From positions 1 to 55,283 of IMG/VR virus record IMGVR_UViG_3300027736_000059: DNA of 55,283 nt; one strand, written 5' to 3'. Source of the stretch: a virus. Both the position numbers and the translations under genes were made by a program. This document shows, in pieces, positions 6,845-34,017 of this stretch. The notes under the pieces are model-generated. The model was not told the origin of the DNA. It worked only from the letters and a program-made list of their open reading frames with translations, and did not search any database. How positions within the stretch are numbered: the stretch's first letter is position 1; every line of letters begins with the position of its first letter.

Positions 6845-9800
6845 ATGGCTTATGACATTTCCTTTGATGATTTGATTCCTAGCAACCAGAAGACAAAAGA
6901 TGTTTCCTTTGATGATTTAATCCCAAAGAAATCTACTTCGCTGGTTACTAGACCAGACCAACAGACAAAAGATAAAGAGGCTCTTTCTATTCTTCAAAAA
7001 GAAAAAGAAAAAGCTTCTGTTGCTCTTGCTGAAGCCCAGCGTCTCAAGGATAAAGCCAGAGAAGATAGGGCTGCTGCTGATGTTCTATCATTAGATAGGG
7101 AGATAGCCGCTACATCTAAGAGGGCTAGTGTAGCCACTGCTGAGCCTGTAGCTGTAGAGCCTACACTGCCAGCGAGAGACAAGCAAGTCCGTACACCTTC
7201 TCTCTATGATATTAAAGCTGCCCCTGTAGAGACTAAGGCAGCGGAAGTAGCACCTGCTGCTCCTGCTCCTACGCCTACAACTGATGAGTCTAAAGTATCG
7301 GCTGCGTTTAGTTATAAATCTAAACTTGCTGAGGGGTTCAAGCCTAGAGCAGAAGCCATGAAGGAGAAGGTAGAACAGACAAGACTAGCAGAAGAGAATA
7401 AGATTCCTTTTGATGCCTTGACACAATCTCCTGCGCTTAAGAAAACTATTGATGATTATGTACTAGCTCGTTTTGGCAAGAGTGAATTGCAAAAGCCTAA
7501 CGAATCTGTAGAAGACTATGTTAATCGCTTTGCTCAGCAGATGCGTTTCCTTAAGACAGGTAATACATATTCACTAGGTTCTGAGATACAATTCTTAAAT
7601 AGTGCTAAACAAGAAGATAAGTTAAAGATGGATGCTGCTTATACCTTATGGGATAATATAGCAGACCCATCTATGATGACAGCAGGAGGAAAAGGACAGA
7701 AAGGAATTAGACCAGTAACAGATTCGTTACTGTCTATGTTCTCAGACCCGCTTACCTTTGTATCATTGGGAGCAGGGAAGATGCTTGCTACTCCCATTCA
7801 AAAAGCTGTAGCTGAACAGGGAATCAAGAAAGCTTTAGTTAGTAACATAGGCAAAGTAGCGGCTATACCTGCCATAGAAACAGCGCAGGGTGTAGCATCC
7901 GATACAGGACAGCAAAAGATAGAGTTAACAATCGCTGCCGCTCAGCTTAAAAATGCTGAAGATAGATTCCCTTCTCTTAGTCCTGAAGAACAGGATAAGC
8001 TTAAACCAACTTTAGATTTACTTAGAAAGAAAGTAGAAGAAGGCATTAATATCAAGCAAGCAGTTATCTCTGGAGTTGTCAGCGGCGTATTGGGTTCGGT
8101 AGAAGCTGCTGGTGTTCTTAAAGCCGGTAAGAAACTAGGCGGTGGACAAAGCAGCTTGGACGAAATCTTAGCTAGAAAGAAAGCAGGGCTTCCTGAAGCA
8201 CCTGCCCCTAAGCTGGAGGTTAAGGCATCTACAGGTACACAGAAGCAATTAGAAGATGACTACGATATCTTCGAAGGGCGTAACCTACTCGACAAACAAC
8301 TGATCAATCTTGATGGATTGTCAGGGATGGAGTATGAGAAAGCCTTCGCAAAGAATGAATCTGCTGTAGCACAGATGCAGGTTAGAAAAGAAATTAATAG
8401 AAAAGCTACACAGCTTGCACAGGAAGTATGGACTAGCCTACCTGAGTTTGCTCCCAAGCAGGGAGAGAAGATATCTGATGCAGTTAAGAATGTGTTTCTT
8501 AACATAGACAGTGTTGATGATGTGGCTTTGAAAGATGCGTTTGCAAAGGCAAACATCACTCCTGAAGAGTTTGCTCGTATGAACAGAACTACAGTGAGTG
8601 ATGCAGCCAGCACAATGCAAAGCTATTCTGTTCTAGCAAGGATACAAAATAAGCTAAAGAGCATTGACCCTGCTGCCGCTAAAGAAGTAGACCTGATGTA
8701 TGGTAATAGGAATGCCATTACTGATTCGTTTGGTTTTATCAAAGACATTAGCATGAGGGCAGACAGAGAACTAAAAGCCTTGATGGTTTCTCAGATAGCC
8801 ACGACTGTTCGTAATGCTTACTCAGGTTTAACTGTTGTTACTTTTGGAGTAGCTTCCGAAGCTGTTGAGTCTGCTCTTTACAGAATTGGTAAAACATCTG
8901 CTGAGATATACACAGGAAAGCCTGTCACTGGCTCGTTCACTAACGGTATCAAGGGCGTGTGGAATGATGCATTCAGAACAGCTTCTTATCTGTCTGATGC
9001 TGGCCTATCTGCTGACGTAGCAGAAAGATTGCTGGCAGGTTCGCCAACACTAAGCAGCCTTATTCTTAAGACTGCTGGTGAAGCTGGTGATCAGGGCTTG
9101 TCCAGAGTGGGACAGATTGCCAATACCTTTAACGTGGCACAGGATGCTTTCTTTAGAAGAGCCATCTTTGCTGCTAACGTAGAGAAGCAGCTAAGTCGTG
9201 TCGGAATAGACATGTTTGATGTGTTGGCACAAAATAAGAACATTCCCTTGGATGTTCTCAAGAATGCTACAAATGAAGCATTACTCGCTACATTTAGTAA
9301 GATGCCTACCAAAGGGCCGGTTTACCATGCAGTTAAGTTTATCGAAGAGCTTGGCCCTGTAGGGTCAACGCTGATACCTTTCCCCCGCTTCATGGCTAAT
9401 GCTATGGAATGGACAGCAACACACAGCCCAATAGGTCTTGTGTCAGGTGCTGTCGATGTTGCTAGCACAGACCTCAATAAAAGAATAGCTGGGCTAGAGA
9501 AGCTGTCTAAAGGAATTGTAGGAACTGGTGCAATCTATGCCGCTTACAAATACAGAAAAGATAACCAAGACACTGAGTGGTACGATGCTAAGAACACTGA
9601 TGGCAGCTTGGTTGATACTAGGGCATTCTTTCCTGTTGCTCCTTTCCTAGCGCTGGGTGACTACTTGGTTAAGCTGGAGAATGGAACTACAAGTGAATTC
9701 AAAGCTAAAGAATTATTTGAGGCAGTGACTGGATTCAAGATGCCAGCAGGTACGAATAGCTGGCTGGGTGACCAGTTTGCTACAGCAGCTTCCAACTGGC

Positions 9801-12583
9801 AAGCCTCAGCAACTGGCGAAGATGTGGCACAAAAGAAAGTAAGTACATTCTTTGGTGAGTGGGCTGGTCAATACTTCGGTAGAGCGCTCATCCCTCTTCA
9901 GCAATTGAGTGACATCATTGGTGCTGTTGATAGAAACGAAACTCTTCCCCGTTCTGTTTATGAAATCAAGCAAGGAGAAGAAGGCTTTATTCCCTCTGCA
10001 AAGAATGTGCTGATGTCAAAAGTTCCTGTGTTGAAGCAGGAACTACCAGTAGCACAGCCGGTCACAAAGACTGAAGCTTCCTTCAATGATGCTGGCTTAC
10101 TGAAGATGTTTGCTGGTATATCAATTAAGGTTAACCCAACTGACTTCGAGAAAGAGATAACTCGCCTCAATGTTCCTTACAACAAACTATTCACCACCAC
10201 AGGTGATAAGGTTGTTGACAGACAGGCTAAGGAAATTCTTGCTCCACAATTGGTAGCTTCTTATGAGGCTTTAACAAGCACTGACTTCTATAAGAACACC
10301 AACAAAGACCTACAGAAGATATCGCTGGAGAACACACTTGCTGGTGTGCAGAAAGAAGCTAAGGCTGTTGCCGTAGATATGGCTAGAGCAAAAGCCATAG
10401 AAGGTGGCTTAGGGGCTGCTCGTGTTATAGAGAATAGATATGCAGCCAAACCCGCTGAAGTGAAGCGTCAGGCCGCTGCTCTGTACAAACAAAATACAGG
10501 CAAAGACCTTACTGAGACTGGGGATTATGAGGCCGGGTTAGCTTATGCTACGGCGGTACAGAACATCCTTAAGCCAACAACAGGTAAGGCTAATGGCGGT
10601 GTAGTGGGTTATGCTGGTGGCGGTCTTCTAGCTAAGAAGGTAGCTGGAGAAACTATAGAGCGTGGACTAACCAAGATTGGTGGTGACCTGTTACAGCAGA
10701 TGGATAACATGCTAGGCAAGAAAGTTGGCACGGAAATTGAAGAGACTGCTGCTGCCCTCAAGGCAACAAAAGAAACTTCTTTGGGTAAGAGTATGGTAGA
10801 ACCCGTCGAATCTATTACATCTACTAAGCGTCCTGTCTTTCGGCCTACATCTACTTCAAAGGTTGTTAAAGACGAAGGGCCATACTTAGGTGATGTTGAG
10901 AGAGAGGGACGTTTTGTAGACGCTCCTGAGCCCAATTTTACTAAACAAGAAGAGCAGGTTATTTCTGCCTCTCAAACATCCTTTTTAGAAGATTTAAAAA
11001 ATAAACTTAATAGTAAAGATACTTCTTATGGTAAGCAGAAGATGCTGCAAAGCATAATTAAAGTCGGCACTGAAGAAGAGAAAAAATGGGCTGCTTCTGA
11101 ACTTGCTGATTTGGCTGATAAACAATTTGATTTGTGGACAAAATATAAAGACGAAGGATATGATGTAGGGGAGTTTATTCCTGAGAAACCTTTCTATTGG
11201 GGTAACCCTGAGAAACAGGAGTATGATAAGAATCCTTTTTCATTTGCCCCAAAGCCGGTGAAAGATAAAGAAGGAAGAGCCATACCGGATTCTTTAATTA
11301 CCACTCTCCCTGAATCTAAAGTTGCTCAAGGAGACTTGGACGCTACATCTTTTGCAAGACAAGGCCCAAGCGTTAGAAAGCAAGTGCTTGCTACTATACG
11401 CCAAGCTAGGACAGATTCCTTTGATGCAATAACTAATCTGCCTAAGGTTAAGGAACTGCCGGATGCTGAGGATGTTATCGCGGTGGTGCAGGGTGATTTC
11501 CGTATCAAAGAAGGAAGAGAAATAAATCCGTCTAAAGCTGAAGACATTAGCATTGTCCAAGACATGGCTACTAAAGCACAGAAGAAACTGGATGCACTGA
11601 GAGAAGAATACAAAGATACTCCACCAGTAAAACTCTATCACGGCAAAGCTGCATATGCGGCTGAGCCTACTACTAGATATAAGACAGGCTTCTTAGACCC
11701 ACAACAGATAGATAAATATCACAGTGAAATGGAAGTGGGTGGTACATCGTTCACTAGGGATTTGAATTTAAACTTTGAGTCTCCTGTTTTTGGTGGGCCT
11801 AATGCAGATAAGATTGTCTACACAGAAATGCCATACGCTGACTACATGTTTAAGAGAATTAACATGGCTCCCACAGCGTATGATAATAAAAACTTAAATG
11901 TTATTGCTCAGTCTATCAACGGGTCTGATAGAGTTGTACGTCCCGTCAGTCTTCCGAGGTCTTCTAACTTTAAGGAAACAGAAGACATGATTACAGAGAC
12001 GGACAAGCTTCGTCCTGAAGGCAAGGGTACAGGTAATCAATTGGAAGTTAGATCAGCAGCTAACGATGTTACTCTTGCTGCTGCCAATCCTGAGAAAGTA
12101 TCTTTGCTTGGTAAAGGTGGAGATAAGAAGGGATTCATTAATCGTGTAAGAGAAGAAACAAATATCAAGGATAGGATTATCAACTTGAGTTCTGACCTCC
12201 ATACAGAGAAGAGTGGTGTTGCTGCCAATAAGATATATAAAGAGATAAGGAATCTCTTTAATAATTATATGGAGAAAGCTGATATCACTTCAACTAAAGC
12301 TGGCATGGGTCAGAGATATCACAGTGAACTATCTAATAACCTAAATATACTTAAAGGAACAGACAGTTCTATTCTCACCAAAAACCTACTGAGTACAACA
12401 AGCGATATCTTGGAGAAGCAGGGTTCTAAAGAGAAGGCTATGTTGCTACGTTCTTTGAGTAAAGAGTTAAAAGTATTAGGGGAAAACTGGGCTAGTGACG
12501 CTGCTGGTCAAGTTAAGAATGTCAACAATATCAGAGAGCTAACCCAGAAGCTAGCCAAGGGTGGACTAGTAGAAAGAAGATAA
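6845..12583 (+). CDS. Giant internal virion/ejection protein (1912 aa)
   Basis: This is the largest gene of the phage and the last of the rightward operon. The N-terminus carries a tandem peptide (ISFDDLIP and VSFDDLIP, residues 5-12 and 21-28). Helical low-complexity sequence follows, then a central region (about 630-1000) with hydrophobic stretches and PFPRFMANAMEW. An NGGVVGYAGGG segment lies near residue 1255, and the protein ends in KLAKGGLVERR. Residues about 1594-1700 (KLYHGKAAYAAEP, then GGTSFTRD, then YTEMPYADYM) have an order reminiscent of ADP-ribosyltransferase folds, which I rate as possible only. Size and position resemble podoviral gp16-type ejection proteins. Confidence 0.75.
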   Translation: MAYDISFDDLIPSNQKTKDVSFDDLIPKKSTSLVTRPDQQTKDKEALSILQKEKEKASVALAEAQRLKDKAREDRAAADVLSLDREIAATSKRASVATAEPVAVEPTLPARDKQVRTPSLYDIKAAPVETKAAEVAPAAPAPTPTTDESKVSAAFSYKSKLAEGFKPRAEAMKEKVEQTRLAEENKIPFDALTQSPALKKTIDDYVLARFGKSELQKPNESVEDYVNRFAQQMRFLKTGNTYSLGSEIQFLNSAKQEDKLKMDAAYTLWDNIADPSMMTAGGKGQKGIRPVTDSLLSMFSDPLTFVSLGAGKMLATPIQKAVAEQGIKKALVSNIGKVAAIPAIETAQGVASDTGQQKIELTIAAAQLKNAEDRFPSLSPEEQDKLKPTLDLLRKKVEEGINIKQAVISGVVSGVLGSVEAAGVLKAGKKLGGGQSSLDEILARKKAGLPEAPAPKLEVKASTGTQKQLEDDYDIFEGRNLLDKQLINLDGLSGMEYEKAFAKNESAVAQMQVRKEINRKATQLAQEVWTSLPEFAPKQGEKISDAVKNVFLNIDSVDDVALKDAFAKANITPEEFARMNRTTVSDAASTMQSYSVLARIQNKLKSIDPAAAKEVDLMYGNRNAITDSFGFIKDISMRADRELKALMVSQIATTVRNAYSGLTVVTFGVASEAVESALYRIGKTSAEIYTGKPVTGSFTNGIKGVWNDAFRTASYLSDAGLSADVAERLLAGSPTLSSLILKTAGEAGDQGLSRVGQIANTFNVAQDAFFRRAIFAANVEKQLSRVGIDMFDVLAQNKNIPLDVLKNATNEALLATFSKMPTKGPVYHAVKFIEELGPVGSTLIPFPRFMANAMEWTATHSPIGLVSGAVDVASTDLNKRIAGLEKLSKGIVGTGAIYAAYKYRKDNQDTEWYDAKNTDGSLVDTRAFFPVAPFLALGDYLVKLENGTTSEFKAKELFEAVTGFKMPAGTNSWLGDQFATAASNWQASATGEDVAQKKVSTFFGEWAGQYFGRALIPLQQLSDIIGAVDRNETLPRSVYEIKQGEEGFIPSAKNVLMSKVPVLKQELPVAQPVTKTEASFNDAGLLKMFAGISIKVNPTDFEKEITRLNVPYNKLFTTTGDKVVDRQAKEILAPQLVASYEALTSTDFYKNTNKDLQKISLENTLAGVQKEAKAVAVDMARAKAIEGGLGAARVIENRYAAKPAEVKRQAAALYKQNTGKDLTETGDYEAGLAYATAVQNILKPTTGKANGGVVGYAGGGLLAKKVAGETIERGLTKIGGDLLQQMDNMLGKKVGTEIEETAAALKATKETSLGKSMVEPVESITSTKRPVFRPTSTSKVVKDEGPYLGDVEREGRFVDAPEPNFTKQEEQVISASQTSFLEDLKNKLNSKDTSYGKQKMLQSIIKVGTEEEKKWAASELADLADKQFDLWTKYKDEGYDVGEFIPEKPFYWGNPEKQEYDKNPFSFAPKPVKDKEGRAIPDSLITTLPESKVAQGDLDATSFARQGPSVRKQVLATIRQARTDSFDAITNLPKVKELPDAEDVIAVVQGDFRIKEGREINPSKAEDISIVQDMATKAQKKLDALREEYKDTPPVKLYHGKAAYAAEPTTRYKTGFLDPQQIDKYHSEMEVGGTSFTRDLNLNFESPVFGGPNADKIVYTEMPYADYMFKRINMAPTAYDNKNLNVIAQSINGSDRVVRPVSLPRSSNFKETEDMITETDKLRPEGKGTGNQLEVRSAANDVTLAAANPEKVSLLGKGGDKKGFINRVREETNIKDRIINLSSDLHTEKSGVAANKIYKEIRNLFNNYMEKADITSTKAGMGQRYHSELSNNLNILKGTDSSILTKNLLSTTSDILEKQGSKEKAMLLRSLSKELKVLGENWASDAAGQVKNVNNIRELTQKLAKGGLVERR

Positions 12584-13068: not shown

Positions 13069-13541
13069 GGTTTATCCTTTAGTTGGTCAATCTTAATGTT
13101 GTAGCAATCGCTCTTAACTGTATACCCATTAGATGGGTCTATAGTTCCCTTCTGCATGAACACAGCATCCTTCATGTATTGATCTTTATTATACACACCT
13201 AGATACCAGCCTATAGAGAAATCATTCTTCACACGAACAAAAGCGTAGTAGTCACAGTCTTGTTTGGTATTCAGCGCAGCAATAGAGCAGTCGTAAGAAG
13301 GCAGGGGGACATAGCCCGTCTGCTTAGTCTTTACATCTATCTTAGTTCCGTTATCCAAAACTAAGTCATAGTCGTAGGTGTTACACAGTTTTCCACCTAG
13401 CACTTGCTGGGCAATAGCCTCGCCAATGAAGCCAGCAATATTGCCAGCCCCTCTGATGATGCTATTGCGAAGCTGTCCCATCTCAGCAGCCTTGTCTCTG
13501 GCCTCAACCAGCATGGCTGGAGATATGACAATCTCTATCAT
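13065..13541 (-). CDS. PD-(D/E)XK nuclease-like protein
   Basis: The 158-residue product shows Glu41 in GFIGEAIAQQVLG, then Asp59 in YDYDLVLDNG and Asp69-Val-Lys71 in TKIDVKTK. This E...D...DxK order is the active-site core of PD-(D/E)XK nucleases. It overlaps nrdJ by four bases (ATGA-type) and is co-transcribed with it. It may resolve replication junctions or act on host DNA; the sequence does not tell which. Confidence 0.7.
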   Translation of the reverse strand: MIEIVISPAMLVEARDKAAEMGQLRNSIIRGAGNIAGFIGEAIAQQVLGGKLCNTYDYDLVLDNGTKIDVKTKQTGYVPLPSYDCSIAALNTKQDCDYYAFVRVKNDFSIGWYLGVYNKDQYMKDAVFMQKGTIDPSNGYTVKSDCYNIKIDQLKDKP

Positions 13542-15451
13542 CTAACTGGACACGCGCCAGTAGCACAATCGTCATCTAATCCAATGGTGGCTTCACCCAC
13601 CTGTGTGATTAACCTAGTGGATGCTACCAACTCATCGTATTGCTCTTTGGTAATTTCCTCTAGCGGTGCTTGCTTAAAGCCATGCTCACTGTGCAGCAAG
13701 AAAGACAAGCTCTTGTGTGAGCCTTTGTAAAACTTCTTCAGATACTTCTTAATATCTGGAAGCTCTTCCTTCTTGTAGTACACAGTACAGCTAACACTGT
13801 TGTCACTCCAGTTCTCCTGCAACCAGCGAACAGTATCAAGCTGCGCCAGTGCATCCACTTGACTAGCCAATGTAGCCACCTCAGAATGACGGAAGGGGAA
13901 CGATACAACCACTGTGCTGTGATCAGTAGAGCCATCAAAGTTCTGCTGATACTCAACAGGATATCCATGATCACGACAGGTCTGCACCAGCGAATGGTTA
14001 GCGCTGATACGGATACGTCTAATCATGTATCGCGCATAAGCAGGATGACATCCCGGTGTAACACCCGGCAGTAGGGACAGAGTTCCGCTAGGTTTAATCG
14101 TGGTTAGCTTGATGGATTTATTAAAGCCATTCTTAGCGCTGTATTGCTCGTCATAATCCCTGAGGTAGGTGTAGGTATCCTTGAGCCAGCTAAGCTGCTC
14201 CTGAGTGCTTTCCAGTACCCCTGTGATGCCAATGCCCATACGCATGTTCTTGTTCACGACGGCTTCTGTCGATTCAAGGTGGCAAGGAAGTGACAAGCTA
14301 TGCTTGTTGATTCGATATAGCAATGTTGCTACATCCATCAACTCTTCCTGAGAGGTAATGTTAGGCAGGAAGATTTCTGCTAGGCAGCAGGTTTCCTTAT
14401 CAGCCAAGCTCTGCTCTGCACATGGGTTATATCCTTGCACATCAGGGTCAGGGTATTGAGTCTCTCCCAAGCGACCAATCTTACGCGACAAACGCAAATT
14501 AATCAAACCATAGGGTTCTCCCTTACCTTCGTAGCCATCCCAAAAGAATTCATGTAGGTCTTCAATGTCATTACAGACAACGCTGTTATTGGACATCGCT
14601 CTCCACGAAGGAATGTTACCCATGTCCCAGCGCTTAGCCAGTAAAAATTCTACATCGTCAGGGTCACCAATAGCAATCTGAGCAGAGCGGCGTACATTAC
14701 CAGCCACCACAACAGCACCAATGATATTCATGATGTCCAAGCAATCAATGGGCCGAAGCTTGCGACCAGCACGGCGGGACAGGATATCACTAACCTTGCC
14801 TATGCCCCACACCAAGTCCTCAGGGCCGCTGGCAGTACCGCCAAAGCCCTTGATGGGTGCGCCCTTACTGCGGATAAGCTGTGTGCTGTAGGTGAAGGTT
14901 TGATTACCACTGCGGTGGGCTAAGAATGCCGCCTTCAGTGTCTTACCTAACAGAGCTACCCAACCCTCACGGCTATCAGGAACAATGAAATTGGCATCAG
15001 AGCTATCAAGACGGGTAGGAGCTTTGAAGTTTTCATTGACAAGGGGAAGCTTATCCACATTGCGCTTTTGAATGTTGTAACCAACACCACTGCCTAGCAT
15101 CAACAAGTCCATAGCCCAAGTGAACGGCTCCACTGGTTTGTCTACTACAGTGAAGGCACAGTTTTGAAGACTGGCTAGGCCAAGCTTATCCACTGTGTTA
15201 GTTCCAAGCTGCCATAAGAAGCGACCAGCAACACTGCCCTTAAGCTCAAGGAAGTGTTTCGTCAATCGCTCTTGTTCTTCTGCTGTGAAGTTGCAGCCTA
15301 GTTGGTCATTGGTGGCATCCACTACACGCTTGATGGTGTCAGTGAATTCTTCTGTTGGACTGTTGATGTCAGCCTCATTAAGGCGGCGAGAGTACGTTCT
15401 CTTATAGGTTAAGTAGCCAACAGATGACCAAGGAGTTTTAATATCGTTCAT
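13538..15451 (-). CDS. nrdJ: B12-dependent ribonucleoside-triphosphate reductase (class II)
   Basis: The 637-residue enzyme is of the monomeric Lactobacillus leichmannii RTPR type. All key residues are in place: Cys98 in LQNCAF (partner of Cys119 there), Cys344 and Glu346 in NPCAEQ (Cys408/Glu410), Cys355 (Cys419), and a C-terminal pair Cys629/Cys634 in CATGAC (Cys731/Cys736), with the same spacings. It makes dNTPs with adenosylcobalamin and so works without oxygen dependence. It is shorter than the 739-residue reference. A terminator directly upstream suggests partial isolation from the replication genes. Confidence 0.93.
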   Translation of the reverse strand: MNDIKTPWSSVGYLTYKRTYSRRLNEADINSPTEEFTDTIKRVVDATNDQLGCNFTAEEQERLTKHFLELKGSVAGRFLWQLGTNTVDKLGLASLQNCAFTVVDKPVEPFTWAMDLLMLGSGVGYNIQKRNVDKLPLVNENFKAPTRLDSSDANFIVPDSREGWVALLGKTLKAAFLAHRSGNQTFTYSTQLIRSKGAPIKGFGGTASGPEDLVWGIGKVSDILSRRAGRKLRPIDCLDIMNIIGAVVVAGNVRRSAQIAIGDPDDVEFLLAKRWDMGNIPSWRAMSNNSVVCNDIEDLHEFFWDGYEGKGEPYGLINLRLSRKIGRLGETQYPDPDVQGYNPCAEQSLADKETCCLAEIFLPNITSQEELMDVATLLYRINKHSLSLPCHLESTEAVVNKNMRMGIGITGVLESTQEQLSWLKDTYTYLRDYDEQYSAKNGFNKSIKLTTIKPSGTLSLLPGVTPGCHPAYARYMIRRIRISANHSLVQTCRDHGYPVEYQQNFDGSTDHSTVVVSFPFRHSEVATLASQVDALAQLDTVRWLQENWSDNSVSCTVYYKKEELPDIKKYLKKFYKGSHKSLSFLLHSEHGFKQAPLEEITKEQYDELVASTRLITQVGEATIGLDDDCATGACPVR

Positions 15452-24682: not shown

Positions 24683-25783
24683 TTAAACAAATCCACGCAT
24701 TCTTGCTGCCACTGTAGCCCCCTTAAGTGTGTGCTTCATGTACGGAGCAACACTCTGCGGTGTAGCATGGCCTGTCATAGCCATGATGTTAGGCAGAGGC
24801 ACTTCAGCCTCAATCATTTCTGTCACCGCTGTCCTTCGCAAGTCCATCAAGAAGACATCCTTAGGTACACCAGCTACATCCATTATTGCACCACCTATTC
24901 GTGCCAGTTGGGCGGGGTTGTATGGTATCAGTCCTCCCTTACCATCACGGATGGTGCTGGGTGCTATGTACTGCTGCCATCCGAAGTCTTTGTGCTGCTG
25001 CTCCAACATGTTACGCAAGTTCTCTGACGTTGGCAAGGACACATCAACCCCTCGCTTGCTCTGCTCAAGGGACAGCGTACCTGTGCCACTGTCGTAGTTG
25101 CTCCACTGAAGCAGACGTATATCACCTAGCCTCTGTCCCCACTCATAGGCCATCTGCACAATTAAACCAATGTTGCGCCACTTAAATTTGCTATACGCTA
25201 CATCCAAGAACGCAGCCACATGCTCCCTCTCCCACACTATCTTGCGTTGCTTGTCAGCCCTTCTAAGTATGTGTGTGAATGGATTGTGTGTGGTGAAACC
25301 ATTGCGTATAGCATGATTGAATAGCAACCTATACACAGCTAAGCTGTGGTTAGCGAGACTAACACTTGTTGCAGCGTGGTTGTCGTATACACGCTGACAC
25401 ATTGGTGTAAGTATATCCCGTAGCTTAGCCTTGCTCAATGGCACACCACCTACCCTATCAGTTAACCAGCGTGATAGATAGTAGTCGTAGTCTGCTTTTG
25501 TTTTAGGCTCAAGCTTTTCATAAGCTAAACTATTCTTATAGTTTATTAGAAGGTCTGTCACTGTGGATGTGCTGGATAAATTCTTTAGTCTGTCGCGCTC
25601 TTCACGCCATTCATCTAAGATTTTATTCTGCTCATCAGCATACTTGAAAGCTATCTTCCAGTTGTTACCTAACGACTTACTCTCCACCACCCCAGCCTTG
25701 ACAGCGAGAGGCGGTGGATTGTATCTATAGATAATACCAGTGGGTTTAGTCTCTCGCATTAGATAGCGAGGGAGTGTACTCAT
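24683..25783 (-). CDS. int: Tyrosine recombinase (integrase)
   Basis: The 366-residue protein has a SAM-like N-terminal DNA-binding domain (about 73-165) and a C-terminal catalytic domain. Arg218 is in GQRLGDIRLLQW, Lys243 in LEQSKRG, Arg316 in MDLRRT, His339 in TGH and the nucleophile Tyr348 in APYMKH. The first box II residue, usually His, is Met313. It would integrate the phage or resolve concatemers. No attP core could be identified beside it, and no repressor gene is recognisable, so a temperate lifestyle is open. It overlaps the next gene by four bases. Confidence 0.9.
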   Translation of the reverse strand: MSTLPRYLMRETKPTGIIYRYNPPPLAVKAGVVESKSLGNNWKIAFKYADEQNKILDEWREERDRLKNLSSTSTVTDLLINYKNSLAYEKLEPKTKADYDYYLSRWLTDRVGGVPLSKAKLRDILTPMCQRVYDNHAATSVSLANHSLAVYRLLFNHAIRNGFTTHNPFTHILRRADKQRKIVWEREHVAAFLDVAYSKFKWRNIGLIVQMAYEWGQRLGDIRLLQWSNYDSGTGTLSLEQSKRGVDVSLPTSENLRNMLEQQHKDFGWQQYIAPSTIRDGKGGLIPYNPAQLARIGGAIMDVAGVPKDVFLMDLRRTAVTEMIEAEVPLPNIMAMTGHATPQSVAPYMKHTLKGATVAARMRGFV

Positions 25784-26658
25784 ACTTCTAGTTCCTCTGC
25801 CATAAGTTCAGGTAACTTTACAATGCCCATGTCGTAGAGCTTCTCAGCCATAGCCAGCAGTTCGTCGTGCTTAACCAGTGCCTTGAGCCATCGCTTAGGT
25901 ATGCTGCTGTAGCCATACATTGCACCAGCCATCATGCCTGTCACTGCACCTACAGTGTCTGCATCGTGGCCCTTGTTAACTGCATGTACTACAGCATCCT
26001 CAAAGCATGTGTTCATGTAGCAGGATTGTGAAGCCTGAACATAAGCATGCATGATGGAGCCATGTGTTTCTCTGCCACTGCTACGGATATTGAAACTACG
26101 GAATTTGTTGTAGTTAGCAAACATCTTTGCTGACATACACTCAGCAATGAAAGCAGCGGTGTATTGCACAACCTCAGGGCTACCATGTGTCATCAACGAC
26201 ACAGCCACACCCTCAGCCACAGCTAGTGCAACACTATCGTGATTGGCTAGCATGATGGGAGCTAGTCGCATGATGGAGCCGTTGCCGCTGGCTTGCAAGT
26301 CTGCGCTGCCAGCATAGGGAAACTCAGATGTCATCTTGTCGATAGCACCGGAGCAGGTACGGCCTATGTCAAAGACATAAGTCCTTGTACCAAAGTGTCC
26401 ACTCTTACGCCATGTCTTGAAGTTGGTGGCAATATCAGCGGGGCTGAATCGTCCAGTGCTGATGTAAGCATCGGCAATAGCCACAGCCATAGCACCATCG
26501 TCTGTCCACTCTCCCTTGTCTGTGCTGTGTACACCACCACCTGTCATTTCGCTATGCACTCCCTCAATCTCATAGGGACGGAGAAATTCCAGCGGTGCGC
26601 CTAATGCATCACCAACAAACAAACCCATGAACATACCGATTGCTTTATCTTTAATCAT
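25780..26658 (-). CDS. ADP-ribosylglycohydrolase (DraG family)
   Basis: The start at 26658 gives MIKDKAIGMFMGLFVGDALG (292 residues); this ATG overlaps the previous stop by eight bases. Metal-binding motifs are WTDDGAM (Thr52, Asp53, Asp54) and GHDADTVGAVTG (Asp232, Asp234, Thr235), with GDALGAPLEF near the start. The family removes ADP-ribose from proteins or nucleic acids using two magnesium ions. In a phage it could undo an ADP-ribosylating host defence or reset the phage's own modification; which one is inference. Confidence 0.92.
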   Translation of the reverse strand: MIKDKAIGMFMGLFVGDALGAPLEFLRPYEIEGVHSEMTGGGVHSTDKGEWTDDGAMAVAIADAYISTGRFSPADIATNFKTWRKSGHFGTRTYVFDIGRTCSGAIDKMTSEFPYAGSADLQASGNGSIMRLAPIMLANHDSVALAVAEGVAVSLMTHGSPEVVQYTAAFIAECMSAKMFANYNKFRSFNIRSSGRETHGSIMHAYVQASQSCYMNTCFEDAVVHAVNKGHDADTVGAVTGMMAGAMYGYSSIPKRWLKALVKHDELLAMAEKLYDMGIVKLPELMAEELEV

Positions 26659-26905
26659 AATTATTTTTCCAAAAGTCTTTTGCCTGTGCTTGTAGTCGAG
26701 CCTGAAACACAGCGTACTCAGCCCTCGCTGCTTGCTCATCCCCATACCACAACCACCAGCCGCCCTCGCCTCTGACATTGTGATGCCCATCGCATCCACT
26801 CAGTATCTGCCAGCCCCTATCAAGGAAGGCATGCAGTTGCTCACCAGTTCCGACACTTAAAAGTACCCTTTTCTCATACACTTGTGAACCTAAAGGTTGA
26901 ATCAT
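26651..26905 (-). CDS. Hypothetical Trp/Gly-rich protein
   Basis: The 84-residue product has a central GEGGWWLWYGDEQAARAEY segment and a C-terminal helix. It overlaps the ADP-ribosylglycohydrolase by eight bases and the upstream gene by four, so it belongs to the same translation chain. It may work with that enzyme, but the sequence alone shows no family. Confidence 0.6.
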   Translation of the reverse strand: MIQPLGSQVYEKRVLLSVGTGEQLHAFLDRGWQILSGCDGHHNVRGEGGWWLWYGDEQAARAEYAVFQARLQAQAKDFWKNNYD

Positions 26906-28602: not shown

Positions 28603-29037
28603 CTATTCTGCAAACGTAAACGAAGCAATGACACGCATCCCTGCCTTGCTAGAAAACATATCCACTGTGTTGCCATTAACCACAGCAAGAGCATGCCCCC
28701 TAACAATGACAACATGCCTACCCTTTGGGTTGTCAGCAAGGAATGTCTTTAGTGTCATGCCTTTGTCGCGGTATGTCACTGCATGTTCCATAGACATCTT
28801 CGCCATCCGCTTGCCATAGTAGGTGACATTGAAAGCACCAGCTTCCTTGTACACCTTGTCCAGTGCATGCCACGGAGTTCCTTTGTTGTCCCTACGTCCT
28901 GCCCTGTTTAGCAAGGACAGAGCTAAGGGATAGGAGTAAACACCTACATTAGCAATTGCCCTCACTGCACAATCACGCTTTTGTTTTAGGCCGAAGTCAT
29001 TAGCGACATAGCCTACGTCTTTGGGTTTGATATACAT
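28603..29037 (-). CDS. Papain-fold cysteine protease-like protein
   Basis: The 144-residue protein has Cys23 in KRDCAVRAIANV, followed by a helical part, and His115 in VIVRGHALAVVNGNTVDMF with Asp126 after it. This Cys/His/Asp order in a 140-residue protein matches papain-like peptidases, transglutaminases or C39-like domains. It is expressed with early genes and could modify host proteins or act as a deamidase. The motif TTCCTGAAAGGAAA carries its Shine-Dalgarno. Confidence 0.62.
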   Translation of the reverse strand: MYIKPKDVGYVANDFGLKQKRDCAVRAIANVGVYSYPLALSLLNRAGRRDNKGTPWHALDKVYKEAGAFNVTYYGKRMAKMSMEHAVTYRDKGMTLKTFLADNPKGRHVVIVRGHALAVVNGNTVDMFSSKAGMRVIASFTFAE

Positions 29038-29061
29038 ACGTTTCCTTTCAGGAATGGTTAG

Positions 29062-29331
29062 TTAAACTGTAGCTTGATACCCTTGGTATGATCTGATTTT
29101 GCTTTTCCCGCTGGAGTTTTTCTCCACAAATTTGATACGAACATCACGCTCATTCAATGCTTGGCACAATATAGGCAGGTCACAGTCTTCTTCCAAGTAC
29201 ACATTGTCCCGTAGCTGGTAGCTGTAATTGCTGATAACCTGTGCCAAACCTAAGTTCTCCAGCACCTGTCGCTTCACCTTACCCCATGCATGCCCTGCAT
29301 CGGAGTACACAATAATTGTGAATGTTTTCAT
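29062..29331 (-). CDS. Small early phage protein
   Basis: The 89-residue product contains DAGHAWGKVKRQVLENLGL, then NYSYQLRDNVYLEEDCDLP and a basic tail. This order is found in small proteins of many phages with no known function. The start overlaps the upstream stop by four bases. The Shine-Dalgarno differs from the array motif (ACCTGTACAAGGAAGC). Confidence 0.7.
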   Translation of the reverse strand: MKTFTIIVYSDAGHAWGKVKRQVLENLGLAQVISNYSYQLRDNVYLEEDCDLPILCQALNERDVRIKFVEKNSSGKSKIRSYQGYQATV

Positions 29332-29549
29332 ACGCTTCCTTGTACAGGTCGGAATTTGATTTTAGCGTTGATGAGTGGATTCGGTGTCGGCTCACACACT
29401 ACTTCGTAGCCCAACAAACTGATGTTCTTCATTGCCTCAATCGTCAGGGTCTTAGTGCCACACATCGAAGCAAATATCTTTGCCTTTGCACACACTGGGT
29501 AGGCCACAACACAGCCATACACTTCCTTCAGGTTAATATGTATTTGCAT
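29328..29549 (-). CDS. Small early phage protein
   Basis: The 73-residue product has VVAYPVCAKAKIFASMCGTKTLT in the middle, a pattern shared by small phage proteins of unknown role. AAAAGGAGAGCGTT precedes the ATG. It overlaps the next gene by four bases. Confidence 0.65.
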   Translation of the reverse strand: MQIHINLKEVYGCVVAYPVCAKAKIFASMCGTKTLTIEAMKNISLLGYEVVCEPTPNPLINAKIKFRPVQGSV

Positions 29550-29572
29550 AACGCTCTCCTTTTAGTTTGGTG

Positions 29573-29956
29573 TTACCACCATGAATAATAAAACACAGCA
29601 TAGTCAGCGACTAATGCATCGGTTGCCAATTCGATAAACCTTTCGGTGTTATCAATATCATATTGATCTATCTCAGCGTTACCAAAAAAGAAACCAGCCT
29701 CATGGGTAAGCTTGTTACTTCGTAAGTCATTCGCCATGTTCTCTATGTCCTGTGCATCAAGCCGAAGGTAAATGCAATTGAATTGCCCTGTGCCGCCCTT
29801 CTTCTCATAGAGCTTACGCATCCAACCATGAAGATGATTAAACTTACGCCAGTAAGCCACCTTCAAAGGCTTCACACCAGCAGTGAATCCCTCCATGATC
29901 TGAGTATCACCAACGTCTTTAGACGGGGTAACAAATGCATACATATCTAGTCCCAT
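29573..29956 (-). CDS. Phage protein of the MGLDMYA family
   Basis: The 127-residue product begins MGLDMYAFVTPSKDVG and has YWRKFNHLHGWMRKLYEKKG and HEAGFFFGNAE. These are hallmarks of a common phage family of unknown function that is often misannotated in databases. It lies one base after the upstream gene's stop. Confidence 0.8.
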   Translation of the reverse strand: MGLDMYAFVTPSKDVGDTQIMEGFTAGVKPLKVAYWRKFNHLHGWMRKLYEKKGGTGQFNCIYLRLDAQDIENMANDLRSNKLTHEAGFFFGNAEIDQYDIDNTERFIELATDALVADYAVFYYSWW

Positions 29957-29957
29957 A

Positions 29958-30209
29958 TCAATGTCCTTTCATGTAGGTTTGTGAATAAACGATATCATCG
30001 TTGATGTTTTCGGGAATAATATAATCACCAGTGTGGTTGTTAGCCTTGACATATTCCTCAATGTCACTCTCCAACATGTGTCGCCGTTCATGGATGGCAT
30101 GAATGATGTACATAGGATGTGCAAACCCTTCGCCAACATAGAAATTACCTAGTTCAAACTCACCAAACCACACCATCACAGGTACTAGTTTATCGCTTAC
30201 GATTTTCAT
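29958..30209 (-). CDS. Small early protein
   Basis: The 83-residue product is acidic, with WFGEFELGNFYVGEGFAH and a helical middle (IHAIHERRHMLESDIEEYV). The array motif at 30214 supplies its Shine-Dalgarno. No family was recognised. Confidence 0.62.
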   Translation of the reverse strand: MKIVSDKLVPVMVWFGEFELGNFYVGEGFAHPMYIIHAIHERRHMLESDIEEYVKANNHTGDYIIPENINDDIVYSQTYMKGH

Positions 30210-30220
30210 ATTGTTTCCTT

Positions 30221-30466
30221 TCAGGAAGTGTAATCGTTGTAAACTTGGACAGTGGCAAAGTCTACATGCCAGTTAAAGCTAGCCCAGCGCAGTGATGTGA
30301 TGCCAGTGCTTGCTATGCTTACAAGCTTGACGGAACGCACAACTGGGCATTTGTCAGTCTCTATGTTATGTACTGATATGCCATCACAAGGGAAGCATTG
30401 GTCATAACGTAGCATGTCATGGGGAAACTTACCCTTGCCCATCACTGTGAATGTAATTATTTTCAT
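30221..30466 (-). CDS. Small early phage protein (FPHDMLRYDQCFP)
   Basis: The 81-residue product opens MKIITFTVMGKGKFPHDMLR and is beta-rich. The FP.DMLRYD..FP signature recurs in small phage proteins of unknown function. Its final Ser codon and stop lie inside the junction motif at 30214, and another copy at 30471 precedes its ATG. Confidence 0.72.
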   Translation of the reverse strand: MKIITFTVMGKGKFPHDMLRYDQCFPCDGISVHNIETDKCPVVRSVKLVSIASTGITSLRWASFNWHVDFATVQVYNDYTS

Positions 30467-30498
30467 TTTATTTCCTTTCAGGAATATCCCTATCGGGG

Positions 30499-30575
30499 AA
30501 TCGTTTCACAAATTGCTAAACTGTTAATGAAATCAACAGCTTAGCTTCAAAATATCGTTTCACCAATCGTTTCAC
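30499..30575. repeat. Three copies of ATCGTTTCAC
   Basis: The decamer occurs at 30500-30509, 30554-30563 and 30566-30575, in the gap before the junction motif and ending inside the stop region of the next gene. The last two copies are 12 bases apart, about one helical turn. They could be a binding site for a phage regulator or simply duplicated gap sequence. Confidence 0.45.
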
Positions 30576-30952
30576 AGCGAAGCGCTGATGAAGCCCTTGC
30601 CACCCTCTGCCAACAATGCAGCCCACTTGGCACTATGCACCGGCTGCTCTGTGCTTCGCTGCACAAAGCTGGTGTACTTGTAGGGGTTGTAGGTGATGGC
30701 TGTACCCATCATCATGTACCGACTGTGTACATCATGAGCACCACTGTCTGCCATGTGTCCAGCGACACCGGCATGGACATTCTTGCGCTTCTCTGCCAGC
30801 ACCCTGCTTCGCCCAGCTTGTGACACCTTGAACGTCACATCTGAGAGCAACACACTATTAGTGTGACCAATTACCAGCCCCTTGAACTGGCCCTCAAGAG
30901 CCTTAATGCTAAAGCATTTCTTGTGTAGGTTGAAATATACGAAGACTTTCAT
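30572..30952 (-). CDS. Hypothetical basic early protein
   Basis: The start at 30952 (MKVFVYFNLHKKCFSIKALE, 126 residues) is set by the junction motif at 30957. The first half is beta-like, the second is rich in Arg, Lys, His and Ala, with KVSQAGRSRVLAEKRKNVHAG. This family is common in early regions of phages; function unknown. Confidence 0.68.
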   Translation of the reverse strand: MKVFVYFNLHKKCFSIKALEGQFKGLVIGHTNSVLLSDVTFKVSQAGRSRVLAEKRKNVHAGVAGHMADSGAHDVHSRYMMMGTAITYNPYKYTSFVQRSTEQPVHSAKWAALLAEGGKGFISASL

Positions 30953-30980
30953 TTTGTTTCCTTTCAGGAAGTGAGTTGAT

Positions 30981-31178
30981 TTATTTGTTGGTTGGGCTGT
31001 TGAAGTAGTCACCTACGGGGCGACCATAACGCTCTGGACAGCGCCCCATTTGCATTCCTAATGCAAAGATGGCATCGTCACGATTCTTGGCAGTAAACCC
31101 TTGGCCCAATTGACCAAGCATATCTTTATAAACTGCATGCCACATCTTAATGTTCCGGTGGTATGTAACTGTAATCAT
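30981..31178 (-). CDS. Small basic early protein
   Basis: The 65-residue product begins MITVTYHRNIKMWHAVYKDM and has a helix FTAKNRDDAIFALGMQMG. The shortened junction motif at 31183 supplies the Shine-Dalgarno. No family was recognised. Confidence 0.62.
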   Translation of the reverse strand: MITVTYHRNIKMWHAVYKDMLGQLGQGFTAKNRDDAIFALGMQMGRCPERYGRPVGDYFNSPTNK

Positions 31179-31198
31179 TTTATTTCCTTTAGGAAGAG

Positions 31199-31483
31199 TT
31201 ACTTTGTTGGGCCGAATGACATACTGCCATCCATCATATCAAACACTAGGGCTTTCGCCCTGTTCAAATACATTCTAGCACTGTCGCTGTCGCCGTGTGC
31301 CATCATCTCTTGGGCATCTGACATCAGCCCTGCCACCACCATTGCACCACCGGAGAAGCGGTAGGTGATGGATTGTTTGACACTTTCTTTGAAAGTTTCA
31401 ATGTTGCAGCCATACATTTGCATGTCATTCGTTACCGAATATTTAACCAAATTGCTGTATTCAGCGGGGTTTGTGAATATCAT
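31199..31483 (-). CDS. Hypothetical helical early protein
   Basis: The 94-residue product has a Met-rich helical body (VVAGLMSDAQEMMAHGDSDS) and ends SFGPTK. The junction motif at 31490 stands just before its ATG. It resembles other small phage proteins with ITYRFSGGAMVVAGLMSDAQE but has no known role. Confidence 0.65.
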   Translation of the reverse strand: MIFTNPAEYSNLVKYSVTNDMQMYGCNIETFKESVKQSITYRFSGGAMVVAGLMSDAQEMMAHGDSDSARMYLNRAKALVFDMMDGSMSFGPTK

Positions 31484-31496
31484 GATGTGTTTCCTT

Positions 31497-31676
31497 TCAG
31501 GAATGTTTCAGGGATTTTCGATAGGCCACAAAGGTATTCCCTTTGTAGACAGCAGCACCACAATCGTAGCAAGCTGCCCAGCTTAGCGCCTCTTTGAAGG
31601 TGAAGGTGTGATGCATTGCATCAAATTGAGGACACCACACAGTGTAACCAAATAGCTCCGCTAGTGTTTGTTTCAT
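31497..31676 (-). CDS. Small early protein, stop inside the junction motif
   Basis: The 59-residue product opens MKQTLAELFGYTVWCPQFDA and has WAACYDCG, possibly a small metal-binding element. Its last codons (CAT TCC TGA) are the start of the motif at 31490. The ATG overlaps the upstream stop (ATGA), so it is coupled to that gene. Confidence 0.65.
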   Translation of the reverse strand: MKQTLAELFGYTVWCPQFDAMHHTFTFKEALSWAACYDCGAAVYKGNTFVAYRKSLKHS

Positions 31677-31843
31677 TCTGCCACCTCTTCGAGTTGCATC
31701 ATAAAGTCAATGGCGTTGTCCAGTGCCTCACCTATGGTTTCATCACTGCCCTCGCTCTTGGGCTGCTCTTTATCTGTCCTAGACAGAGTGTCCCGAATGT
31801 CATAAAGATCAAACAGGACGATTTGGATTTGCTCTAAGTTCAT
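31673..31843 (-). CDS. Small acidic early protein
   Basis: The 56-residue product (MNLEQIQIVLFDLYDIRDTL) is a helical, acidic protein that may dimerise through leucine-rich faces. The junction motif at 31849 lies before its ATG and is also the end of the previous gene. Function is unknown. Confidence 0.65.
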   Translation of the reverse strand: MNLEQIQIVLFDLYDIRDTLSRTDKEQPKSEGSDETIGEALDNAIDFMMQLEEVAE

Positions 31844-31855
31844 GATTGTTTCCTT

Positions 31856-32083
31856 TCAGGAAGTGATTTCAGAATTGTAGGCTTCAGCCAGTGCATTTTC
31901 GCTGTCAATCGTCAACTGGTCAAACACCTGTTGCTTCGTGCCTTTGTAGCCCATACCCTTAAGAATTGCATAGCAAGTCTTACCTTTAGAGGTGAGTCGC
32001 ATACCTCGCATCTCCAGTTTAAGTCCTTGCCTTAGTGAACGGAGACGGAAGGCTTCGATTTGATCGGGGGTTGTTAACATCAT
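31856..32083 (-). CDS. Small phage protein (MLTTPDQIEAFRLRSLRQGL)
   Basis: The 75-residue product starts MMLTTPDQIEAFRLRSLRQG and has KLEMRGMRLTSKGKTCYAIL and GYKGTKQQV, a family found in many phages with no assigned activity. The last Ser codon and stop lie in the junction motif at 31849. The leader holds the motif at 32089 and copy B of the structured element. Confidence 0.75.
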   Translation of the reverse strand: MMLTTPDQIEAFRLRSLRQGLKLEMRGMRLTSKGKTCYAILKGMGYKGTKQQVFDQLTIDSENALAEAYNSEITS

Positions 32084-32104
32084 GATTGTTTCCTTTCAGG
32101 AATT

Positions 32105-32186
32105 AATAGGTGGGGGTACTCACTTCACTGCATCTACTACGAATCCACGATTTACGCAGTCACAGCATCTGCTTTCCCCCCGAAAA
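32105..32186 (-). ncRNA. Repeated intercistronic element, copy B
   Basis: It begins two bases after the stop of the upstream gene with TTTTCGGGGGGAAAGC and ends GTGAGTACCCCCACCTATT, directly before a junction motif. The outer G and C runs can pair, ACTGC can pair with GCAGT, and AATC-GTG-GATT can form an inner hairpin. The middle is longer than, and differs from, copy A at 27149-27226, while both ends are nearly identical, including the position after a stop and before a Shine-Dalgarno. Confidence 0.5.
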
Positions 32187-32188
32187 GA

Positions 32189-32455
32189 TTAACGAAGCGA
32201 AGCAGCTTCGCCGCTCAGTGCCACAGATACAATTGTATCCCTGTTGATGCAGCGATAACCTGCATTCTGCATGTCATACACCACAAGGTATTTGCTGTGG
32301 TCAACAGTGGACAAACCACCTTTCAGGTGTTTCTTCACACCTAATCGGCAATTCATTTTGCGAAGCTGTCCGTCTTTCTTTTTAAAGACTACAGTTACGA
32401 ATTTGCCTTTGCTTTCAGCAATGAGAGCGGAAAAAGCAGCAGATATAATGGACAT
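32189..32455 (-). CDS. Small SH3-like phage protein
   Basis: The start at 32455 (MSIISAAFSALIAESKGKFV, 88 residues) lies behind CAAAGGAAAATT. The body FVTVVFKKKDGQLRKMNCRL, then GVKKHLKGGLSTVDHS and YLVVYDMQNAGYRCIN, is the SH3-beta-barrel type found in many phages. It may bind nucleic acid or protein; that is inference. Confidence 0.75.
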   Translation of the reverse strand: MSIISAAFSALIAESKGKFVTVVFKKKDGQLRKMNCRLGVKKHLKGGLSTVDHSKYLVVYDMQNAGYRCINRDTIVSVALSGEAASLR

Positions 32456-32787
32456 AATTTTCCTTTGTTGGATAGTTGCTTGATAGATACTCTGTAGCCC
32501 AGTGCCACAAAGCATCTTAAAGCGTCCACTGTATAACACCGACCCCGATGCCACTGTAGACACATCCTGCACATATTATCACCATGATATGTCAGCATAG
32601 ATAGCGGAATTCCCTCGCCGCTACTCAAGCCCAGCCAATTTCAGCTTCGCTGTCACCGAAGCATACTGATACCGGAATTAAATTTTTAAAGAACAATCGG
32701 GAGAAGCTTCGCTTCACAGCGGGGCTTAACCCTATAGAGAAAGTACGATAACCCTCTGCAAAGCCCTTAGGGCTTTACGCAGTGCTA
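32456..32787. other. 332-bp gap in the early region
   Basis: No gene here is well supported. A leftward frame (32395-32598, starting MLTYHGDNMCRMCLQWHRGR) has no good Shine-Dalgarno and overlaps the next gene out of frame, so it stays a weak candidate. The gap holds palindromic words: GAAGC-TTCGCTTC near 32703, and AAAGCCCTTAGGGCTTT at 32760-32776, a perfect hairpin without a T run on either strand. It lies where a gene could have been lost, downstream of the read-through junction motif at 32815. Confidence 0.5.
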
Positions 32788-33558
32788 TCAGGCTGCTAAT
32801 GCAATCGGTATGAATTTCCTTTCAGGAATACTCTTACGATCAAACACAAAGCCACTGTAATCAAGCTTCGCTTTGCCTTTTGCATACAGTGCCACAACGA
32901 CACCCTTTTCCTCTAAGTGACGAATGTCACTGTTATCACCACCGATTACAGCCATTCCCCTATGCATCTTCGGAATCGAAGCAACGTCACGGAATACTGT
33001 CGCAATTCGCATCCCAAGGGCCACTGCTTTTTCAACAAAGGGCTGAAAGCCCTGCACACCGCTATCACTGAAGGTCAGGTCATAATTTGCTGGAATAAAT
33101 CTACGATTTACATCCTTGGTGTAGTCGTAGAATTGAACGTCAGGGAAAGCAGCAAATATGTTTACATATTCAGTGCCATCGGCATCGACAAAAGCTACGC
33201 TTTCCCAACGAATATCACTAGTGCCGTTCAATCGAATCAGCGCTGTCTTATTTTGCTTTGTTGCTTTAGCAACTAGCTGACGAATATTCATTGCCAATTG
33301 CACCATGAAAGAGCTACGCTCTTCGAAGAACCATATTGTTTTGTTGATTCGACCTTGTGCCACTGTTGACATAGCACCCCGTCCAGCGGTGAATAGGCAT
33401 CCTTCGCTGCACTTGGCAATGCCAGCCATGCTGCAAGTATTCCACTTTGTGGAAGTGTATGGTGCTAGATAGAGGATGCCGGTTAAGAAACCAAAGGTTT
33501 CACCCTTTACAGTTTTGGCATCTGCACCGATAGAAAGCAAAGCTTTAGACTTGAACAT
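32788..33558 (-). CDS. Phage protein of the Gp88/DUF7227 type
   Basis: The 256-residue product begins MFKSKALLSIGADAKTVKGE, has a Cys-containing stretch NTCSMAGIAKCSEGCLFTAG, then ALIRLNGTSDIRWE and GFQPFVEKAVALGMRIATVF. This order is a common phage family of unknown activity. The gene ends with SIPERKFIPIALAA, where IPERK is encoded by the junction motif at 32815, which is here read in frame instead of serving as stop and Shine-Dalgarno. A copy at 33565 precedes its ATG. Confidence 0.75.
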   Translation of the reverse strand: MFKSKALLSIGADAKTVKGETFGFLTGILYLAPYTSTKWNTCSMAGIAKCSEGCLFTAGRGAMSTVAQGRINKTIWFFEERSSFMVQLAMNIRQLVAKATKQNKTALIRLNGTSDIRWESVAFVDADGTEYVNIFAAFPDVQFYDYTKDVNRRFIPANYDLTFSDSGVQGFQPFVEKAVALGMRIATVFRDVASIPKMHRGMAVIGGDNSDIRHLEEKGVVVALYAKGKAKLDYSGFVFDRKSIPERKFIPIALAA

Positions 33559-33647
33559 AACGTGTTTCCTTTCAGGAAGGTTGTGGCAATATTGCCGAAG
33601 AAACGCTACTGTATCACACCGATAATAACCATGTCAACACTAGGGGC

Positions 33648-33832: not shown

Positions 33833-33919
33833 TTTGTCTTTCAATTTTTTTAAAGAAGAAAGTATTTCCCCTTTTCATACTGATAAAGGGGATACTTTCT
33901 TCAAAAATTGAAAGACAAA
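33833..33919. repeat. Large inverted repeat 1 (origin/switch region)
   Basis: The outer arms are perfect: 33833-33849 with 33903-33919 (17 pairs), then 33855-33865 with 33892-33902 (11 pairs), then CCCCTTT with AAAGGGG (33868-33874 with 33885-33891), around a ten-base loop. In total 35 base pairs lie in 87 bases. It ends three bases before the first leftward ATG. It may be a cruciform for an initiator, a bidirectional transcription barrier, or an mRNA leader hairpin. Confidence 0.9.
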
Positions 33920-33943: not shown

Positions 33944-34017
33944 CTTCTTAAACTAATACAATTCTAGATGCCATCACTGTGTTCTGGCATAAGAATTGTT
34001 TTTATTAGTTTAAGAAG
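33944..34017. repeat. Large inverted repeat 2 (origin/switch region)
   Basis: CTTCTTAAACTAAT pairs with ATTAGTTTAAGAAG (14 pairs), ACAATTCT with AGAATTGT (8 pairs), and TGCCA with TGGCA (5 pairs) around an eleven-base loop. It lies 24 bases from inverted repeat 1 and differs from it in sequence. Two such long palindromes side by side are rare in compact phage genomes and suggest a site of protein-guided strand opening or termination. Confidence 0.9.

Follow-up and report, generated by a model that had tools for sequence, protein, structure and literature searches.

A hairpin repeated at early gene starts of a freshwater phage is probably a structured ribosome-binding site

What is the role of a 14-base sequence that recurs unchanged before one early phage gene after another, and that extends beyond the Shine-Dalgarno (SD) sequence it contains? 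This question is raised by a 55,283-base stretch of DNA, referred to here as the window, from IMG/VR virus record IMGVR_UViG_3300027736_000059, which is described as a freshwater phage. The sequence TTCCTGAAAGGAAA occurs in it exactly nine times, always on the minus strand and within 29041–33578, and all nine copies sit in the early minus-strand gene array (Table 1); a shortened form, TTCCTAAAGGAAA, occupies 31183–31195 on the same strand. Dinucleotide shuffles gave an expectation of 0.01 copies of TTCCTGAAAGGAAA and never reached nine. An earlier, sequence-only reading of the window had reported these copies, and had also stated that eight precede an ATG and that three genes stop on the TGA of the motif; all of this was confirmed, with copies 4, 5 and 8 holding the stops and the one copy that does not precede an ATG, 32815–32828, falling inside the GP88-family open reading frame (ORF). 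That reading had proposed either cassettes recombining at the repeats or a regulatory hairpin. Based on comparison with related loci, we think it probable (about 60%) that the repeat serves as a structured ribosome-binding site by which translation of the early gene cassettes is set and, in many cases, coupled.

The core of the repeat is a 13-nt perfect inverted repeat, TTCCT-GAA-AGGAA, which gives a 5-bp stem and a triloop and is followed by AAC. The SD sequence occupies the loop and the 3′ arm; GAAAGGA is an extended SD that would pair with a betaproteobacterial 16S tail. By RNA folding, the hairpin alone scores −2.4 kcal/mol, and its predicted pairing probability in context is approximately 0.8. 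In an Rfam search of the window at gathering scores, the hairpin was unmatched and a tRNA was the sole match. An intrinsic terminator was ruled out on inspection, as the stem is not followed by a T-run.

We then asked how the element is distributed among relatives. The exact 14-mer is also arrayed in other IMG/VR contigs, and a GP88 protein search returned 80 loci, which after removal of near-duplicates yielded the 52 motif loci used for counts; most of these relatives are metagenomic fragments, ORF calling was simple, and all of the evidence is comparative. The 52 loci contain 283 hairpin starts (median 5 per locus, up to 10) before 59 gene families. Near start codons we found 292 of 297 hairpin instances, with a spacing of 5 nt to the start codon at 203 of the 283 starts, and in motif-bearing GP88 loci the motif was on the GP88 strand 171 times and on the opposite strand 0 times. 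At 228 TTCC-type starts, the upstream ORF ended on the TGA or TAA of the hairpin in 86 cases, compared with 20 and 12 for the other frames (p = 2e-18). The hairpin is thus tied to translation starts and often holds the stop codon of the upstream gene. A megablast of the phage collection found no close relatives of the window, no isolate carrying the motif was found, and the motif was absent from the stretches retrieved around GP88 in the named phages closest at the protein level (Limnohabitans phage DC31, Manatee Spring podovirus MW202701 and HMO-2011). Cellular genomes gave 36 scattered single matches and no array.

Evidence for a fold came from variation in the two arms. At the same place, relatives carry the alternative stems TTACC/GGTAA, TTTCC/GGAAA and TTACT/AGTAA, with GAA, AA, AAA, GTA or TTAA as the loop. 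When starts were chosen by the 3′ arm only, GGTAA faced TTACC in 28 of 44 cases and TTCCT in 0 of 44, and arms other than AGGAA matched their own complement 43 times, compared with a mean of 6.5 and a maximum of 14 in shuffles. In the alignment of GP88 starts, two of the five pairs carry changes in both partners, and covariation scored 0.270 against 0.113 ± 0.021 for shuffled alignments (reached by 0 of 500 shuffles). One compensatory swap lies between identical flanks, where ATTTCCGAAGGAAAACATC (loci L156 and L263) and ATTACCGAAGGTAAACATC (L267) differ only at paired bases. Mapped onto the GP88 tree, the types of stem and loop switch back and forth several times.

Single-substitution variants told the same story from the other side: T2, C3, C4 and T5 of the 5′ arm were changed 2, 2, 0 and 0 times, as seldom as the SD side, while T1 was changed 33 times. 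Single-step wobbles were rare (C3>T, two cases); MAFFT misplaces rows with AA loops when loop lengths are mixed, so that per-pair U-G counts partly reflect alignment register and were not used as evidence of wobble. Conservation of the 5′ arm beyond what the SD needs, as had been suggested from the window alone for TTCC, was borne out among relatives at T2–T5. We also looked for the opposite pattern, the same genes with GAAAGGA alone retained, and found instead that gene-family starts keeping the SD-side context almost always have a 5′ arm with its inner TCC intact, with pairs 2 to 4 standard in at least 96%. Together, the paired arm changes and the rigidity of T2–T5 argue that the stem itself, beyond the SD, is under selection. 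The suspected hairpin is thereby strongly supported, with a stem of 5 bp that is longer than the TTCC/GGAA first noticed. Stem types, four of which are common, are mixed within a locus in 24 of the 52 loci, which favours a structure over one fixed binding sequence.

How might such a hairpin act? We propose that the weak mRNA hairpin (about −2.4 kcal/mol) would hold back the SD, and that a ribosome ending the upstream gene on the in-hairpin TGA or TAA would open it and let the next gene start, so that genes of the array could be translated in step. The in-hairpin stops fit coupling by unfolding or re-initiation, mechanisms that are reviewed in PMC12548453. In the coupling cases known from that review, as proposed here, a structure covers a downstream ribosome site and is opened by the ribosome of the upstream gene; those cases are individual gene pairs, whereas here one identical unit stands at about five (up to 10) starts per locus and before 59 gene families. 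At hairpins where no gene ends, initiation would merely be lowered to a common level. A gene arriving with its own hairpin might work at once, since every gene carries the same unit, and such a shared unit suits the gain, loss and swapping of single genes described below. Several points weigh against a structured ribosome site. The stem has little stability and might open readily; 43 of the 283 hairpins have no upstream stop within 120 nt, and coupling is therefore not general; the small number of common stem types makes a hairpin-reading protein possible; hairpins within coding sequence (in GP88 of the window, L129 and L340, and in a phrog_7971-type gene of L152 and L340) are not ribosome sites; and our p-values are uncorrected for relatedness.

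The cassette proposal was examined by comparing gene order across relatives, where the junction-switch and deletion counts are likewise uncorrected for relatedness. In L129, the closest relative, gene 30981–31178 is precisely missing together with one hairpin. At copy 4, L199 shares the upstream flank and has a different downstream gene, and at copy 8, L138 shares the end of the upstream gene and continues with a gp82-family gene instead. The same upstream flank was joined to a different downstream gene at 135 of 198 hairpin starts, compared with 91 of 186 ordinary starts (p = 1.8e-4), and the same downstream sequence to a different upstream one at 174 of 217 compared with 127 of 190 (p = 3e-3), an odds ratio of about twofold. 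Clean hairpin-to-hairpin absences of a gene were seen for 22 of 168 neighbouring hairpin pairs, and equivalent empty alleles for 15 of 135 ordinary pairs (p = 0.72). The predicted gain, loss and replacement of genes exactly between copies was thus found, while the idea that the repeats drive it is weak: given the similar rate at ordinary pairs, single-gene exchange is general in this region, with the repeats modestly favoured at most. The start of gene 31199–31483 is a separate observation on these junctions. Its L129 orthologue begins at the hairpin and lacks the first ~45 nt of the window gene (MIFTNPAEY..), which resemble the start of the family of gene 31856–32083 (MMLTTPDQI..); this suggests that the 5′ end of the gene is chimeric, with its join at the hairpin. 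In lambdoid phages, short conserved boundary sequences are found at gene borders that show mosaic exchange. Our hairpin shares their border position and the mosaic exchange, but they are not known as one repeated covarying hairpin, and our loci show just a modest excess of exchange over ordinary starts.

Could the repeat have been kept mainly as short homology for exchange of single-gene cassettes, with any effect on translation secondary? BLAST homology ended at hairpins far more often than under a uniform expectation (left ends 1708 vs. 256, right ends 700 vs. 256) and more often than at control starts (623 vs. 233; 459 vs. 233), and the junction switches and the 22 precise absences point the same way. 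Nevertheless, these clean deletions are no commoner than between ordinary starts, exchange by homology calls for identical sequence and not for paired arm changes or loci of mixed stems, and the position of the repeat is tied to starts at SD spacing, so we consider this explanation unlikely. The hairpin might instead be a shared translational operator through which an RNA-binding protein of the phage or host turns the entire early set on or off, as MS2 coat protein and T4 RegA bind translational operators. One element before 59 unrelated gene families would suit this, as would the GAA loop and trailing AAC, which are mostly kept while stems vary, and the hairpin-led gp82-family gene is present in 39 of 40 longer motif loci and in 2 of 15 other loci. 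That co-occurrence is, however, confounded with phylogeny, and the stem sequence varies within single genomes. Neither candidate binder gained support: the WYL_2/Sm-like protein occurs in just 13 of the 52 motif loci and was ruled out as an obligatory binder, and the gp82-family protein gave a good model (pLDDT 92) that matched no known fold, RNA-binding or otherwise. We consider such a binding protein improbable.

Two explanations act on DNA. With its perfect palindromic arms and 3-bp centre, the 13-bp palindrome could be an operator to which a dimeric repressor binds at numerous sites along the early operon, for which the stoperators of Cluster A mycobacteriophages are the model, and the presence of an integrase gene makes lysogeny possible. 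Such an operator would hardly be expected always in sense orientation a few bases before start codons, its half-sites differ within one genome in the 24 mixed loci, and a centre varying among AA, GAA and TTAA would shift them, which makes this account very unlikely. We give almost no credence to a promoter in the form of a DNA hairpin, such as the N4 virion RNA polymerase uses, with a short stem and a purine triloop. The 5-bp stem and GNA-type triloop resemble that promoter, but here the purine loop is on the coding strand, an orientation in which an N4-type promoter would face away from the gene; loops of AA and TTAA also occur, and no polymerase family was matched by either of the two large unassigned ORFs, one of them (1912 aa) having no match at all.

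Some copies lie inside genes. Copy 2 encodes ..IPERK.. within the GP88-family ORF, where nearly all GP88 homologues have no copy, and compared with most homologues the window GP88 has a net 18-nt in-frame insertion at this hairpin, in common with L129. In L340, a hairpin lies at the same GP88 codon with different neighbouring bases, and its GP88 C-terminus resembles that of L161. A TTACC-type hairpin also lies in another gene of L152 (12467) and L340 (11435), so that coding-sequence hairpins are found in two unrelated genes, each time eight codons before the stop. These in-gene hairpins cannot act as ribosome sites. They would be strays if the hairpin were a self-contained, copyable start module that passes from gene to gene and from phage to phage and labels exchangeable cassettes of early genes, one RNA fold both setting translation and standardising borders for shuffling. 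We regard this broader account with reserve, as rather unlikely; it recalls, loosely, the attC sites of integron cassettes, and involves no dedicated recombinase.

The closest known counterpart to the structured start site is the start-associated sequence (SAS) of Cluster K mycobacteriophages, which has been without an assigned function since 2011 (PMC3203893) and was surveyed again in PMC12699233. Its consensus, GGGATAGGAGCCC, was termed non-palindromic by the authors, who noted that about half of SAS carry an upstream 17-bp inverted repeat (ESAS) and found little support for RNA pairing of the latter (PMC3203893). Both elements are 13-bp repeats that occupy the ribosome-binding sites of numerous unrelated non-structural genes, in one orientation and mostly before ATG, conserved beyond the need of SD pairing, with the upstream stop sometimes inside and a few copies within ORFs. 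In our loci, the element was start-associated (292 of 297), preceded 59 gene families, kept one orientation, with no copy on the opposite strand in the 52 loci, and was conserved beyond the SD; in the window it was limited to the early, non-structural array. It differs in sequence, in being a perfect, covarying 5-bp inverted repeat, and in host and phage lineage, and a repeat search in the window revealed no ESAS-like partner, with similarity confined to the motif and ATG region. The element behaves like an SAS, yet by sequence it lies outside the Cluster K family. In Microbacterium Cluster EF phages, a 13-bp motif, GGGAAAGGACCCC, stands at ribosome-binding sites ten times (PMC7302621); these copies have another sequence, are linked to a weak upstream ESAS and would have the SD between outer GGG/CCC and not in a stem arm, and the passages describing them report no covariation. 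What is new relative to SAS is an independent lineage in which comparison supports a stem-loop with the SD as part of the fold. This suggests that some phages may use a standard structured start unit that places swapped-in early genes under common translational control.

Related start elements were also seen in other loci. In a sister group at ~59% GP88 identity the motif was not found, and the start sites before GP88 in this clade read TATC-AAGGATC-GATA or AATC-AAGGATC-GATT (L183, L187, L189, L192, L193, L194 and L198), with the SD in a 7-nt loop closed by a 4-bp stem, the outer pair of which varies in both partners; L192 and L198 have two copies each. This SD-in-loop layout resembles the Cluster K SAS (GGG-ATAGGAG-CCC). 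L177 (three times), L207 and L144 (once each) have GTTCT-[AA/AC/AT/TA]-AGGAC before ATGs, a related start hairpin whose stem includes a U-G pair.

Table 1. Hairpin copies and genes of the early array in the window, in order of transcription.
Feature	Coordinates	Strand	Basis or remark
Hairpin copy 1 (TTCCTGAAAGGAAA), start site of GP88-family gene	33565..33578	-	Exact match; start-associated
GP88-family gene (PF17338), 256 aa, first gene of the array	32788..33558	-	Pfam 2.5e-36
Hairpin copy 2, ectopic, in GP88 coding sequence, 8 codons before stop	32815..32828	-	Exact match
WYL_2/Sm-like gene, 88 aa, start without hairpin	32189..32455	-	PF10902 1.4e-7
Hairpin copy 3, before gene 31856-32083	32089..32102	-	Exact match
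75-aa gene, TGA stop inside copy 4	31856..32083	-	ORF list
Hairpin copy 4	31849..31862	-	Exact match
56-aa gene	31673..31843	-	ORF list
59-aa gene, TGA stop inside copy 5	31497..31676	-	ORF list
Hairpin copy 5	31490..31503	-	Exact match
94-aa gene	31199..31483	-	ORF list
Shortened hairpin TTCCT-AA-AGGAA(A), variant common among relatives	31183..31195	-	Sequence inspection
65-aa gene	30981..31178	-	Absent hairpin-to-hairpin in L129
Hairpin copy 6	30957..30970	-	Exact match
Phage_L5_gp82-family gene (PF25735), 126 aa	30572..30952	-	Pfam 1e-41
Hairpin copy 7	30471..30484	-	Exact match
81-aa gene, TGA stop inside copy 8	30221..30466	-	ORF list
Hairpin copy 8	30214..30227	-	Exact match
83-aa gene after copy 8	29958..30209	-	ORF list
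Hairpin copy 9, before gene 28603-29037	29041..29054	-	Exact match
144-aa gene (phrog_3754, unknown function), last hairpin-led gene	28603..29037	-	PHROG

The integrase, primase/helicase and DNA polymerase genes lie on the same strand as the array, and among the protein relatives of the window are HMO-2011 and Roseobacter CRP podoviruses. Two strong inverted repeats, at 33833–33919 (17 bp, perfect) and 33944–34017 (18 bp, 94%), lie directly upstream of the array and are possibly part of its leader. The noncoding stretch after GP88 (32456–32787) contains small hairpins whose tips are wholly different among relatives while their outer parts are kept. Elsewhere in the window, the 1912-aa ORF (6845–12583, plus strand) has no Pfam or PHROG match, 13538–15451 encodes a ribonucleotide reductase that contains an insertion domain of the B12-dependent (class II) type, and an ADP-ribosylglycohydrolase-like gene lies at 25780–26799.

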